Below, piece by piece: positions 1-3,704 of a stretch of 64,000 bases of DNA. The notes beneath the pieces are model-generated. The model did not search any database. It saw only the letters and a program-made list of their open reading frames with translations, and was not told where the DNA came from. The position numbers and the translations under genes were made by a program. The stretch comes from Peribacillus sp. FSL P2-0133 (lineage in GTDB: Bacteria > Bacillota > Bacilli > Bacillales > DSM-1321). Position 1 is the first letter of the stretch; each line of letters starts with the position of its first letter. The stretch lies in the NCBI RefSeq assembly GCF_037975445.1, contig NZ_CP150254.1, forward strand, positions 1,362,001 through 1,426,000, read 5' to 3'.

Positions 1-1470
1 ATGGTTCCTGAACTATTGAGTATTGATGAAAACAAAGTGGAAGGGTTTTTGGAAGAAAAAGAAGATCTGAAATTATACAAACATTCTTTAGAGGAAATTA
101 ATCTTCAGAGACCCCATATCTTATCTGCAGAGCAGGAAGAATTATTGGCGCAAGCATCAGAAGTACTTGATGCATCGGGCAATACTTTCGGAATGCTTAA
201 CAATGCCGATTTGAAATTCCCGACCATCAAGGATGAAGAGGGAAATGAAGTGGAAATTACTCACGGAAGGTATATCAGTTTTCTTGAGAGTGAAGATCGC
301 CGTGTACGTGAGGAGGCATTTAAAGGGGTATACAGCAAGTATGGAGAGTTCCGTAATACATTTGCTTCAACCCTGTCAGGTGAGGTGAAAAACCACAACT
401 TCAATGCCACGGTTCGAAAATATGAATCAGCACGCCAAGCGGCGTTAAGTAATAATAACATTCCGGAGACCGTATACGATAATCTCGTTAAAACGGTCAA
501 TGACAACTTGCCATTACTGCACCGTTATCTTGATTTACGTAAAAAAGTACTGAAATTAGATGAACTTCATATGTACGATCTATTCACTCCTCTTGTTAAA
601 GAAGTGAAGATGGAAGTGACATATGACGATGCCAAAGATTATGTCCTTAAAGGTCTTGCTCCGCTTGGGGAGGACTATTTGAACGTTTTGAAAGAGGGAT
701 TTGAAAACCGTTGGGTCGATGTGCATGAAAACAAAGGGAAACGAAGCGGTGCCTATTCTTCTGGTACATATGGGACGAATCCTTATATTTTAATGAACTG
801 GCAAAATAACGTCAATAACTTATTCACGCTCGTTCATGAATTTGGGCATTCGGTTCATAGCTACTATACACGTAAATATCAGCCATATCCATACGGGAAT
901 TATTCCATATTTGTAGCGGAAGTTGCATCAACTTGTAATGAAAACTTGTTGAACGATTATTTACTGAATTCAATCGAAGATGAAAAGAAACGCATCTATT
1001 TATTGAATCATTACCTGGAAGGTTTCCGCGGCACATTGTTCCGGCAAACGATGTTTGCAGAGTTTGAACATACGATTCATTTAAAAGCTCAAAATGGGGA
1101 AGCGTTGACAGCGGATATGCTTACTAAGGAATATTATGAGCTGAACAAGAAATACTTTGGAGAGAACGTGACCATTGATGAAGAAATCGGTTTGGAATGG
1201 GCGCGCATTCCACACTTCTACTATAATTACTATGTTTATCAATATGCAACTGGAATCAGTGCAGCAACAGCATTAAGCAAGCAAATCCTTGAAGAAGGAG
1301 AGCCTGCTGTCAAAAGGTATCTGGAGTTCTTGAAGTCAGGAAGTTCCGATTATCCGATTGAAGTGCTCAAAAAGGCTGGCGTCGATATGACTAAAGCCGA
1401 ACCTGTACAAGAAGCCATGAATGTATTCGAAGAAAAATTAAATGAGTTGGAAGAGCTTTTGAATAAATAG
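1..1470 (+). CDS. pepF: Oligoendopeptidase F, M3 family (5' end outside window)
   Basis: Cytosolic zinc metallopeptidase of the M3 (thimet) family that degrades short peptides. The zinc site HEFGH is visible about residue 279 of the visible part, followed by the typical Ser-Val-His-Ser-Tyr-Tyr context. PepF proteins are about 600 residues long; only 489 codons are present, so about 110 N-terminal residues lie upstream and the ATG at position 1 is most likely an internal methionine. A strong intrinsic terminator follows the stop codon directly. In B. subtilis this gene (yjbG) also precedes the spxH region, so the context supports the call. The family is clear; the start is not visible. Confidence 0.95.
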   Translation: MVPELLSIDENKVEGFLEEKEDLKLYKHSLEEINLQRPHILSAEQEELLAQASEVLDASGNTFGMLNNADLKFPTIKDEEGNEVEITHGRYISFLESEDRRVREEAFKGVYSKYGEFRNTFASTLSGEVKNHNFNATVRKYESARQAALSNNNIPETVYDNLVKTVNDNLPLLHRYLDLRKKVLKLDELHMYDLFTPLVKEVKMEVTYDDAKDYVLKGLAPLGEDYLNVLKEGFENRWVDVHENKGKRSGAYSSGTYGTNPYILMNWQNNVNNLFTLVHEFGHSVHSYYTRKYQPYPYGNYSIFVAEVASTCNENLLNDYLLNSIEDEKKRIYLLNHYLEGFRGTLFRQTMFAEFEHTIHLKAQNGEALTADMLTKEYYELNKKYFGENVTIDEEIGLEWARIPHFYYNYYVYQYATGISAATALSKQILEEGEPAVKRYLEFLKSGSSDYPIEVLKKAGVDMTKAEPVQEAMNVFEEKLNELEELLNK

Positions 1471-1689: not shown

Positions 1690-1783
1690 TTTGGTCACCT
1701 CCAACCTGGCCGCAGTAAAAGCTCATCTGCGCTTTATTAGATAGTATGTTTTAAAATAAGCAGTATTCTAAGAATATGACAAT

Positions 1784-1837
1784 AATGTGAAGTTGCGCAC
1801 AAAGTTCTTGCAATTAAGGTGTATAATCTGCTATAGT
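1784..1837 (+). promoter_or_regulatory. Promoter region of RoxS-like RNA copy 1
   Basis: The -10 element TATAGT (1832-1837) lies 34 bases before the CCCC block of the RNA, the same spacing as in copy 2. A second -10-like TATAAT is at 1822-1827. No good -35 hexamer is visible, which suggests an activator-dependent promoter. One TGTGAA motif resembling a ResD half-site is at 1784-1792, about 55 bases before the inferred start. The 18-base Rex-like box of copy 2 is present here only in degraded form. Confidence 0.5.
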
Positions 1838-1843
1838 ACAGAT

Positions 1844-1966
1844 ATAGAAGTTATCACATCCCAAACATATACCCCTTTGTTTGTTCGTCGTGAAATTTCT
1901 CCTATCCCCTTATTCGTATAAATAGATGAAAACCCCAGCAAATTTCGTGATTTGCCGGGGTTTTTC
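1844..1966 (+). ncRNA. RoxS/RsaE-type small regulatory RNA, copy 1
   Basis: It shares with copy 2 (at 2263) the core ACCCCTTTGTTTG, a GTGAAA segment, and a C-rich TTTCTCC-ATCCCC-TTATT block, and ends in an intrinsic terminator (AACCCC...GGGGTT plus T-run). These C-rich unpaired blocks are the signature of RsaE (Staphylococcus) and RoxS (B. subtilis), which pair with the ribosome binding sites of mRNAs for central metabolism in response to NADH and nitric oxide. In this copy the second block reads CTCCTATCCCC instead of CTCCCATCCCC, and TCG is duplicated near the GTGAAA. The 5' end is inferred from promoter spacing. Recognised from memory of the family, not by a model search. Confidence 0.75.
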
Positions 1967-2191
1967 ATTTGCATCAAAAGTAAAAAGAACAAAATGACGC
2001 CGGTTGTAACAAAAGTTGTACGAAAGATTAGGAAATAAAAACAAATGATCTAATATTTCTTGTGATTCACTTCACAATTAGATTCATTCCCACGCTTATC
2101 AGATATCAAAAACACTTATGTCTTTTAATTAAAAATTGGCTCTTATTTAGCTATATATACCAGAAACGATAATTAAAAAATGAAAAATATA
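1967..2191. other. Spacer between the two small RNA genes
   Basis: AT-rich stretch without a convincing gene. Its one clear element is the palindromic Rex-like box described separately. Confidence 0.5.
2060..2077. promoter_or_regulatory. Rex-like operator 1
   Basis: TTGTGATTCACTTCACAA matches the Rex consensus TTGTGAA-N4-TTCACAA except one position. It is the exact reverse complement of the box at 2262-2279. It lies about 190 bases upstream of copy 2 and downstream of copy 1. Rex is the NADH/NAD+-sensing repressor that controls roxS in B. subtilis. No promoter is obvious at this copy, so it may act as an auxiliary operator. Confidence 0.65.
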
Positions 2192-2212
2192 TATTGTGAA
2201 CAATTTGTGAAA
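2192..2212 (+). promoter_or_regulatory. Tandem ResD-like sites upstream of RoxS copy 2
   Basis: Two direct TTGTGAA repeats at 2194-2200 and 2205-2211 are exactly 11 bases apart, one helical turn. They lie about 58 to 69 bases before the inferred RNA start. The spacing and motif fit the ResD consensus TTTGTGAAT. An overlapping TGTGA-N6-ACACA (2206-2221) also resembles an Fnr box. Assignment is by motif only. Confidence 0.5.
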
Positions 2213-2261
2213 TGTTACACATACAGTTGAAACATAACTGGGTTATCTGTTATATTGTTTA

Positions 2262-2279
2262 TTGTGAAGTGAATCACAA
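2262..2279. promoter_or_regulatory. Rex-like operator 2 at the start of RoxS copy 2
   Basis: TTGTGAAGTGAATCACAA lies five bases after the -10 element TATATT (2251-2256), covering the inferred transcription start. Repressor bound here would block transcription initiation directly. Matches the Rex consensus except one position. Confidence 0.75.
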
Positions 2280-2378
2280 ACAAACTTATACCCCTTTGTT
2301 TGATCGTGAAAAATTTCTCCCATCCCCTTATTTTCTTATAAAAAAAACCATGCAATCTTTTGATTTGCATGGTTTTTC
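2263..2378 (+). ncRNA. roxS: RoxS/RsaE small regulatory RNA, copy 2
   Basis: The sequence follows the RoxS/RsaE pattern closely: ATCACAAACAAAC, then ACCCCTTTGTTTG, CGTGAAAAATTTCTCCCATCC and a CCTTATT end, closed by a terminator (AACCATGCAA...TTGCATGGTT plus T-run). Its position next to spxH (yjbH) matches my recollection of the roxS locus in B. subtilis. Regulation fits as well: a Rex-like box over the start and ResD-like repeats upstream imply response to NADH and to nitric oxide or oxygen limitation. RoxS represses translation of TCA-cycle and respiratory mRNAs by pairing through its C-rich blocks. A 67-codon open frame overlaps this RNA but has no plausible binding site or protein character. 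Confidence 0.85.
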
Positions 2379-2392
2379 CTTTTTAAATATAA

Positions 2393-2422
2393 CAAAAAAG
2401 CAGTCAAATTCATGACTGCTTC
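2393..2422 (-). terminator. Intrinsic terminator of spxH
   Basis: On the minus strand AAGCAGTC...GACTGCTT is followed by six T. It overlaps the last codons of spxH. The RoxS copy 2 hairpin just beyond may act as a second stop for convergent transcription. Confidence 0.7.
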
Positions 2423-3303
2423 TTTGTATATCTCCAAAACGTTCCGTATTTAGCAGGAATCTTCTCTGCCAACTGTTTTAAAACAAGCTTTTTCATTTCC
2501 AACTCGACGTTATTCTTATTCATATTATAAACAGTTTCAATTTCCTTTGTGGCCACTAGTTTGAAACAGCTTAAAAATTCTTCGAGAGAGGGGGGTTTTG
2601 CAGGGGCTGGAAGACCATTGAGCATATCTTCTAAAATTTGAACATATACCTCGTAAGAATAGACACCTGAAACTTTTATTCCCTCTTCTTCAATATTTTG
2701 ATTGAAAAAGACAAGGGAAGGTATTTCAGTTACTTCCATTTCGCTTGTGATTTTCATGTCACATTGAAAGCCTTTGGCTGCACTGGAAGAATTGATGTCA
2801 TAAAGGAATTCCTCCACATCCAGTCCAACCATTTTGGCACATTCGGTCAAGACTTCGATATTGGATATATCCTTTTTTCCTATGAATACATATTCTTGAA
2901 GCTGCCTTAAAAAGCGAATGGCCAATTTACGCCCCTGCAATTCCGCTGCTTTTATTGCGATGGAAGCTGTATATGGAGAAGAGATTGGGTTTTCAGACCA
3001 AAGGCTCCCGTCGCAGGACATTCCCGAGCGGCTGGCTGTCTTTTCCCAAACTTGAGCAATGTTTTCATAATTTTTATTTTTCCCCATATTAAGAGAATCG
3101 ATTTTACCGCTTAAAACATGGCGTAAACTGAACAATTGGCCATATTCTATCTGTAATTTCCTAATAATTGGTTCTAAGCCCCAGCATTCGGGACAAAGCG
3201 GATCAACAAAAACATAAATTTCAATTGGCTTTTTTCCTATATCATAGCAATGCTGCGTCTTGATCCAATCGGAAATATTGAAAACTGGTTTTTGTGCGCT
3301 CAA
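2410..3303 (-). CDS. spxH: ClpXP adaptor protein SpxH (YjbH), DsbA-like fold
   Basis: SpxH binds the thiol-stress regulator Spx and presents it to ClpXP for proteolysis, so it sets the level of the disulfide-stress response. The 297-residue product has the thioredoxin/DsbA-like start with a CPEC motif (Cys37, Cys40) followed by Trp-Gly, as in YjbH proteins, and a helical insert. Its start overlaps the stop of the upstream globin gene yjbI by four bases, so the two are translationally coupled, as in B. subtilis. The neighbouring RoxS-type RNAs also belong to redox control. Family assignment is confident. Confidence 0.93.
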   Translation of the reverse strand: MSAQKPVFNISDWIKTQHCYDIGKKPIEIYVFVDPLCPECWGLEPIIRKLQIEYGQLFSLRHVLSGKIDSLNMGKNKNYENIAQVWEKTASRSGMSCDGSLWSENPISSPYTASIAIKAAELQGRKLAIRFLRQLQEYVFIGKKDISNIEVLTECAKMVGLDVEEFLYDINSSSAAKGFQCDMKITSEMEVTEIPSLVFFNQNIEEEGIKVSGVYSYEVYVQILEDMLNGLPAPAKPPSLEEFLSCFKLVATKEIETVYNMNKNNVELEMKKLVLKQLAEKIPAKYGTFWRYTKKQS

Positions 3304-3704
3304 CTGTCTTCTCCTTTCCCGTCAGTTCCGGATGTATTGATCATATGCTGTGCCGTCAAATAGAGGCGGTGATAGAAAAACTCCCTAATCTCACCCTCAA
3401 GGCCAACTTCGTCCATAGCTTGATACATGCATGAAAGCCATGCTTTCGCACGTTCTGGTGTAATTTCAAAAGGTATATGTCGAGCCCGCAACATAGGATG
3501 GCCATGCTCTTCGGTATATAAAGAGGGACCGCCTAAATATTGAGTCATAAATTGTTTTTGCTTACGGACCGTTTCAGTTAAATCGTCAGGGAATATTGGC
3601 TGCAGATCCGGGTGCTGACTAACGTTGGAGTAAAACACATCAATTAATTTGTGTAATTGCCCTTCTCCAATTAATTCATATGGTGTAGGGTTCCCTTGCA
3701 TCAT
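3300..3704 (-). CDS. yjbI: Group II truncated hemoglobin YjbI
   Basis: A single-domain 2-on-2 hemoglobin of 134 residues, the usual size. Visible family features are the Asp-Val-Phe-Tyr-Ser-Asn-Val segment in the B helix, and the Arg-His-Ile-Pro-Phe-Glu-Ile motif whose His76 should be the proximal heme ligand. In B. subtilis the protein is linked to protection of SpxH from aggregation or oxidation, which fits the four-base overlap with spxH downstream. The ATG-ATG start follows an AAAGGAG site at about eight bases. An own promoter probably lies in the 230-base gap upstream. Confidence 0.93.
   Translation of the reverse strand: MMQGNPTPYELIGEGQLHKLIDVFYSNVSQHPDLQPIFPDDLTETVRKQKQFMTQYLGGPSLYTEEHGHPMLRARHIPFEITPERAKAWLSCMYQAMDEVGLEGEIREFFYHRLYLTAQHMINTSGTDGKGEDS

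Follow-up and report, generated by a model that had tools for sequence, protein, structure and literature searches.

Why would a bacterium keep two RoxS/RsaE-type small RNAs side by side, and do the two copies answer to the same signals? This question is raised by a locus in the window, a 64,000-nucleotide stretch of DNA (positions 1,362,001-1,426,000) from a 5.81-Mb genome on one contig. The closest relatives of its SpxH protein come from Peribacillus simplex, P. frigoritolerans and Bacillus strains (97-100% identity), and by this protein sequence the host is a Peribacillus of the simplex/frigoritolerans group. The original prediction placed two RoxS/RsaE-type RNAs by spxH, and the RsaE/RoxS family model of Rfam (RF01820) bears it out, with 95.5 bits for copy 2 and 57.2 bits for copy 1. 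Both copies sit between pepF and spxH, the location of RoxS/RsaE. The main features, in window coordinates, are:

1..1470, plus strand: pepF, oligoendopeptidase F (TIGR00181), with its 5' end beyond the window
1808..1837, plus strand: copy 1 promoter, TTGCAA-18-TATAGT, from a promoter scan; conserved
1845..1964, plus strand: copy 1, a RoxS/RsaE paralogue
1872-1875, 1899-1903 and 1906-1909, plus strand: blocks CRR1, CRR2 (T at 1903) and CRR3 of copy 1
1929..1964, plus strand: copy 1 terminator hairpin (-18.9 kcal/mol, z -4.9), with compensatory changes
2227..2256, plus strand: copy 2 promoter, TTGAAA-18-TATATT, from a promoter scan; conserved
2264..2377, plus strand: copy 2, a RoxS/RsaE small RNA
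2291-2294, 2317-2321, 2324-2327 and 2328-2338, plus strand: blocks CRR1, CRR2 and CRR3 of copy 2, and its changed tail
2341..2377, plus strand: copy 2 terminator hairpin (-17.2 kcal/mol, z -5.7)
2410..3303, minus strand: thioredoxin-like gene (PF13743), which we take from synteny to be spxH (yjbH)
3300..3704, minus strand: truncated haemoglobin gene, yjbI-like (PF01152)

Copy 2 is a family member by the cut-off (gathering score 79). Copy 1 aligns with the model over its full length and scores below the curated cut-off of 79, which the best match also misses in five of the 36 genomes of the genus. Over the 5.8-Mb genome the model gave three significant matches, of 95.5, 57.2 and 44 bits (E-values of 1.7e-16, 2.3e-8 and 1.4e-5), and the first match other than RoxS scored 20.2 bits (E-value of 1.5). 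A covariance-model search had been proposed as a check on the prediction; copy 2 passes its cut-off, and copy 1, while below it, is matched in substance by E-value. By sequence, we regard copy 1 as a clear homologue, a paralogue of the RsaE/RoxS family and not a curated member. The fourth and fifth genome matches (20.2 and 16.5 bits) were rejected, the RoxS blocks being absent on reading. Other Rfam matches in the region, including the trpB motif, rli61, Yfr10 and sau-5971, were all below their own cut-offs, lay mostly on terminators or on the RoxS sequence itself, and were likewise rejected. Between pepF and copy 1, the minus strand of the window carries an ORF of at most 59 amino acids (1525-1704) with a good ribosome-binding site and a membrane-like product; it had no NCBIfam or Pfam match.

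The two RNAs had been described as some 420 bases apart, with similar promoter spacing and their own terminators. In agreement with this, their model starts are 419 bases apart, both promoters are sigma-A-like with 18-bp spacers, and each copy ends in a predicted hairpin. The promoter scan by itself proves little, because it counted six promoter-like sites here and 4.0 in shuffled sequence. In the output of a simple terminator scan, the hairpin of copy 1 appeared for the minus strand alone and that of copy 2 was absent. Whole-RNA fold z-scores were -6.4 for copy 1 and -5.8 for copy 2 (-3.2 and -2.3 without the terminators). In the predicted folds of both copies, CRR1 is presented in the loop of a long 5' hairpin and CRR2 and CRR3 are unpaired. 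Among the aligned copy 1 sequences the CRR1 stem does not vary, and two-sided changes were found in three of 35 pairs, all in the terminator.

Is copy 1 still a working RNA? It could be a decaying or already silent duplicate, as its Rfam score below the cut-off, the loss of its Rex operator (see below) and a changed base in CRR2 might indicate. The changed base in this second C-rich block, already pointed out in the original prediction, is real (a C-to-T change at position 1903), although it is found in only six of 20 related genomes. We measured conservation in 20 simplex-group genomes, leaving out G019 because it nearly duplicates G018. Mean pairwise identity in the RNA body was 0.95 for copy 1 and 0.96 for copy 2, and in the promoters 0.89 and 0.86, while the spacer between the copies reached 0.47-0.50. 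In copy 1, 71 of 86 RNA-body columns were invariant, versus none of 85 in the adjacent spacer. Since both RNA bodies are 95-96% identical against roughly 50% for the spacer, copy 1 does not appear to be decaying, and this contrast is our main argument for a working copy 1. The conserved promoter of copy 1 and the compensatory changes in its terminator point the same way. Real decay looks different, as is displayed by a third copy elsewhere in the genome, and we consider it very improbable that copy 1 is a relic.

genome C1:1287850-1287957 (L003 1501-1608), minus strand: third RoxS copy with a promoter (RF01820, 44 bits, E-value of 1.4e-5)

This third copy, which like a palindrome in the spacer (see below) was absent from the original prediction, sits on the other strand at a distance of about 76-78 kb from the pair. 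In the host its C-rich blocks are changed and its 5' hairpin is lost, while the terminator is kept. In a tree of the small RNAs and their promoters, third copies form a branch within the copy 2 cluster (own support 0.98); by its sequence, the third copy is a decayed derivative of copy 2. The Rfam model detected it in five genomes (G000, G001, G004, G008 and G031), and four more (G006, G017, G020 and G021) were added by a model based on copies 2 and 3, giving nine of the 21 simplex-group genomes; the five third copies used in building the latter model match it by construction. Only G004 has an intact third copy (82.7 bits), and the C-rich blocks are changed in all others. Third matches in G010 (34.7 bits) and G013 (32.1 bits) are off the third-copy locus and were left out of these counts. 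The G013 match (L071; G013:C62:22624-22737, minus strand) shares CATCCCCTTTGTTCGT with the 3' half of RoxS; a terminator comes next, and the stretch is without a CRR1 hairpin.

If both tandem copies work, in what do they differ? Four elements upstream of or at the transcription starts are relevant here:

1777..1791, plus strand: copy 1 upstream box TGACAATAATGTGAA, in its ancestral form, close to where B. subtilis roxS has its ResD site
1842..1859, plus strand: place of the lost copy 1 Rex operator (ATATAGAAGTTATCACAT)
2194..2211, plus strand: copy 2 upstream element TTGTGAACAATTTGTGAA, two ResD-like boxes 11 bp apart; conserved
2262..2279, plus strand: copy 2 Rex operator TTGTGAAGTGAATCACAA, over the transcription start

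In B. subtilis, Rex is reported to bind near the roxS start and to repress, with malate relieving the repression (PMC5419742). The full Rex-like box predicted over the copy 2 start proved to be a perfect TTGTGA-N6-TCACAA palindrome (0/12 mismatches, on sequence alone), with no mismatch in 16 of the 20 genomes and one in the other four. At the corresponding place in copy 1, the predicted degraded box has 5/12 mismatches in 20/20 genomes. Random sequence of equal composition has a mean of 5.6 mismatches, so this is chance level. What this place keeps, GAAGTT and TCAC, are bases that pair in the RNA, so that copy 1 has lost the Rex operator and retained the RNA. The operator is not rigid in the genus, as single-copy relatives have one to three mismatches in their own Rex site.

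The upstream boxes are a further point of difference. ResD is described as required for nitric oxide induction of roxS in B. subtilis (PMC4409812). The upstream box TGACAATATTGTGAA has 0-1 mismatches in all eight single-copy relatives, 0-2 in copy 1 and 3-4 in copy 2 (20/20 genomes each), a thin contrast. By sequence, the paired ResD-like boxes proposed for copy 2 and the single one for copy 1 are present. The boxes at 2194..2211 resemble the ResD consensus and are candidate ResD sites. With its two clean TTGTGAA boxes, copy 2 may equal or even surpass copy 1 in binding ResD.

The tails past CRR3 also differ. The ancestral 3' tail CGTATAAATAGA has 0-1 mismatches in copy 1 and at least three in copy 2, in 20/20 genomes each. 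In B. subtilis RoxS the ten bases CCCCUUUGUU are described at both CRR1 and CRR3, the latter being the main point of contact with ppnKB (PMC4409812). Five of the 20 genomes retain these bases at CRR3 of copy 1, and no genome retains them there in copy 2. The split of features is not uniform across lineages, because CRR1 of copy 2 is damaged in two asahii genomes, copy 1 of G032 retains the Rex site, and both copies retain it in G010, G011 and G022.

The copies might nevertheless be redundant and kept for RNA dosage, as in multicopy small RNA families, with the promoter differences irrelevant in the cell. An intact CRR1 in both copies of 18/20 genomes, a canonical CRR2 in most copies, and the in silico pairing of both copies with the sucC start region (see below) would all fit this. 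The differences in operator and tail, on the other hand, are fixed in 20/20 genomes, and the third copy, itself from copy 2, is decaying in most genomes where it was detected. Because that copy was left to decay, extra dosage alone does not seem to be generally kept, and we find dosage an unlikely explanation for the pair.

The reading that we prefer, at a probability of about two in three, is an old tandem duplication of roxS after which both copies stayed functional and their inputs were split, with only copy 2 under Rex. It is based on homology, synteny, conservation, the loss and retention of sites, and predicted folds; transcription, regulator binding and effects on targets are what we infer from these. 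How old is the pair? Among the related genomes in which the duplication was to be sought, a tandem pair at pepF-spxH was found in 28 of the 36 genomes of the genus, the remaining eight being single-copy. Three sister genera of the same family have one copy in each of seven genomes and no tandem pairs (0/7). In a survey of the order, 248 of 397 genomes had a match, 13 of them Peribacillus, and five of the other 235 had two matches; a more sensitive look at seven genomes of the order added one further two-match genome, G393. Of these six genomes, three from one genus (G188, G343 and G382) have tandem copies at the same locus, and the other three have a weak second match elsewhere (36.9-39.2 bits). 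In a survey of the class, 113 of 398 genomes matched, and only the host genome and G188 had more than one match. The order and class surveys were run with stricter filters, so weak second copies may be missed in them.

The tree built on pepF and spxH places G032, G012, the asahii group (two genomes) and the simplex group (21 genomes) in one clade with pairs, while G010, G011 and G022 fall in another clade together with the single-copy G033 (support 0.92) and may owe their pair to an independent duplication. The simplex and asahii copies cluster by position in the small RNA and promoter tree, copy 1s with support of 0.93 and copy 2s with 0.69; the supports in this tree are weak. The duplication at the pepF-spxH home locus would then have preceded the parting of the P. 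asahii and P. simplex lineages. In G031 (L028), no spxH match was found beside copy 2 within 3.1 kb; the other fully flanked genomes have one.

The spacer between the copies, poorly conserved as it is, contains one further element:

2060..2077: isolated Rex-type palindrome TTGTGATTCACTTCACAA, the reverse complement of the copy 2 operator

Nineteen of the 20 genomes have the palindrome with no more than one mismatch (12 of them perfect) and G014 lacks it, and the spacer is otherwise unconserved in these genomes, the flanks of the palindrome included. Shuffled spacers yield such a palindrome in about 0.03% of trials. The host genome has three perfect TTGTGA-N6-TCACAA sites, two of them here, 202 bp apart, and none of the reversed pattern. 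With up to one mismatch allowed, the excess is smaller, at 14 sites versus seven for the reversed pattern. Across genomes, 164 to 210 bp separate the spacer palindrome from the copy 2 operator. The third perfect site (L117 1501-1518; genome C1:747376-747393) lies just upstream of a gene for a TIGR01777-family oxidoreductase, a possible Rex target by sequence.

Which protein might recognise the spacer palindrome? Genes for Rex and for a single Crp/Fnr-type protein, which has a cluster of cysteines at its C-terminus, are present in the genome. Instead of a Rex operator, the site could be of Fnr type, or part of an unannotated promoter or minus-strand transcript. TGTGA-N6-TCACA is also compatible with Bacillus Fnr, for which the Crp/Fnr-type protein would be the candidate. 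The small excess of one-mismatch sites is in keeping with such readings, and the genes beside 11 one-mismatch sites, listed to separate Rex from Fnr, gave nothing decisive and suggested no regulon. A minus-strand transcript might be seen in a match of the copy 2 and 3 model to 1929-2083, from the palindrome to the copy 1 terminator (32.8 bits, E-value of 0.05). We rejected this match as an inverted fourth copy, because the palindrome alone is conserved there. Neither side of the palindrome has a conserved promoter-like sequence at a fixed distance, which speaks against a promoter. Rex is favoured over Fnr because the T preceding TCACA is present in 19/19 genomes, as in the S. aureus Rex consensus TTGTGAAW4TTCACAA given in PMC2883068. 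In the host genome, moreover, the spacer palindrome and the reverse complement of the copy 2 operator are identical. On balance, an identity other than a Rex operator is credible, though we would not bet on it.

Some further observations concern palindromes at the home locus. Of 64 home-locus copies, 21 are preceded, 56-60 bases ahead of the model start, by a palindrome with no more than one mismatch. G014 (L007), which has no spacer palindrome, lacks the terminator of copy 2 as well, and its copy 2 runs into the hairpin adjacent to spxH. In G004 and G017 (L030 and L024) the spacer palindrome is embedded in an inverted repeat of far greater length, which makes it look like a hairpin as well; such a repeat is not evident by eye in most other genomes.

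Different targets for the sister RNAs had been envisaged in the original prediction. The evidence is no more than suggestive: the changed CRR2 base occurs in just 6/20 genomes, and the fixed change in the copy 2 tail is accompanied by a base change in the sucC ribosome-binding region. The sucC start region pairs with both copies in silico in six genomes, one of them single-copy (z of -0.7 to -4.0), with duplex energies that are weak evidence, as they were computed without an accessibility model. We read the relevant sucC base in 13 genomes. It is C in G026, G005, G011 and G032, and U in G012, G002, G004, G034, G014, G000, G017 and G019. In G178 the region reads TTAGG; this genome, from the genus with the highest RoxS scores, is probably B. 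subtilis-like. The sucC genes of G003 and G024 were not found in the stretches searched. In the clade of G012, asahii and simplex, the sucC region is AUAAGG in all eight genomes read and copy 2 has UUAU. In G026, G011, G032 and G005 the region is ACAA and no copy has a UUAU tail; G005 has an odd tail, CCCCTTTAGTACC. The change in the copy 2 tail and that in the sucC ribosome-binding region are consistent with compensatory change. This co-variation carries little statistical weight, because it amounts to one joint transition on the tree.

How might the divided pair operate? Given an old duplication with split inputs, the ancestral inputs would have been divided between the two functional daughter copies. 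Copy 2 would be a Rex-gated RoxS, blocked by Rex on its start operator until NADH rises, with Rex perhaps also bound to the second palindrome, 202 bp upstream of this operator. As the Rex operator was lost and the old upstream box kept, copy 1 would answer ResDE (low oxygen and nitric oxide) without an NADH gate. If the Rex control of B. subtilis is transferred to this locus, copy 2 should be NADH-gated and copy 1 not, judging from the conserved sites. With the CRR1 hairpin, CRR2 and CRR3 retained in both, either RNA should block the ribosome-binding sites of central-metabolism mRNAs, and the different tails past CRR3 may shift their target preference. In a more elaborate version, which we regard as speculative and rather doubtful, the duplication yielded NADH-gated and NADH-blind sisters. 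Rex would hold the gated one through a pair of operators some 200 bp from each other, possibly by DNA looping, and the 3' tail of this RNA would have evolved jointly with the ribosome-binding region of sucC (before the split, G in the small RNA and C in sucC; after it, A and U).

A pair with a Rex operator in one copy only, fixed over about 20 genomes, would allow the two inputs to be separated and the purpose of each to be studied. Together with the third copy, one genome offers three stages of small RNA duplication, in a kept pair with split features and a further copy in decay. Among the titles and abstracts of the literature matches listed, none reported a duplicated RoxS/RsaE, which lends weak support to its absence from print. 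RoxS/RsaE itself is known, and it is the conserved tandem pair with split regulatory features that appears to be new.

Outside the genus, the nearest counterpart is the pair in the three genomes of genus g86 (G188, G343 and G382; L081-L083 and L085-L087), which likewise has two copies about 370-480 bases apart between pepF and spxH. Unlike in Peribacillus, none of the six copies reaches the Rfam cut-off (50.8-58.7 bits), and those that were read have changes in the arms of the Rex-site palindrome. Because it occurs in another lineage, this pair is probably a separate duplication. Two genomes of genus g119 (G393 and G336; L088 1495-1600 and L089) have a compact RoxS-like RNA off the home locus (38-39 bits), composed of UAGUCACA..AAACCCCUUUGUUU..GUGACUCCCAUCCCCU and a strong terminator (fold z of -7.3 in L088). 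It is possibly a mini-RoxS or a convergent C-rich small RNA.

Compared with RoxS of B. subtilis and RsaE of S. aureus (RF01820), the Peribacillus locus shares the position between pepF and spxH, the CRR1 hairpin, CRR2 and CRR3, the terminator, a Rex operator over the start (here in copy 2) and an upstream ResD-like box. The surroundings of roxS and rsaE are also described as similar between those two species (PMC4409812). Peribacillus differs in having a tandem pair plus a decayed further copy, a Rex operator in copy 2 only, a copy 2 with a changed CRR3 tail, and a spacer that carries a second Rex-type palindrome. Sister small RNAs kept after duplication are known from other systems, including OmrA/OmrB and PrrF1/PrrF2, and some such multicopy families are arranged in tandem. 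LhrC1-5 of Listeria (PMC4132741, PMC5880928) is a further example of sisters kept in this way. All of these are unrelated RNAs with unrelated regulators, whereas the sisters in Peribacillus are set apart by the loss of one repressor's operator in one copy.
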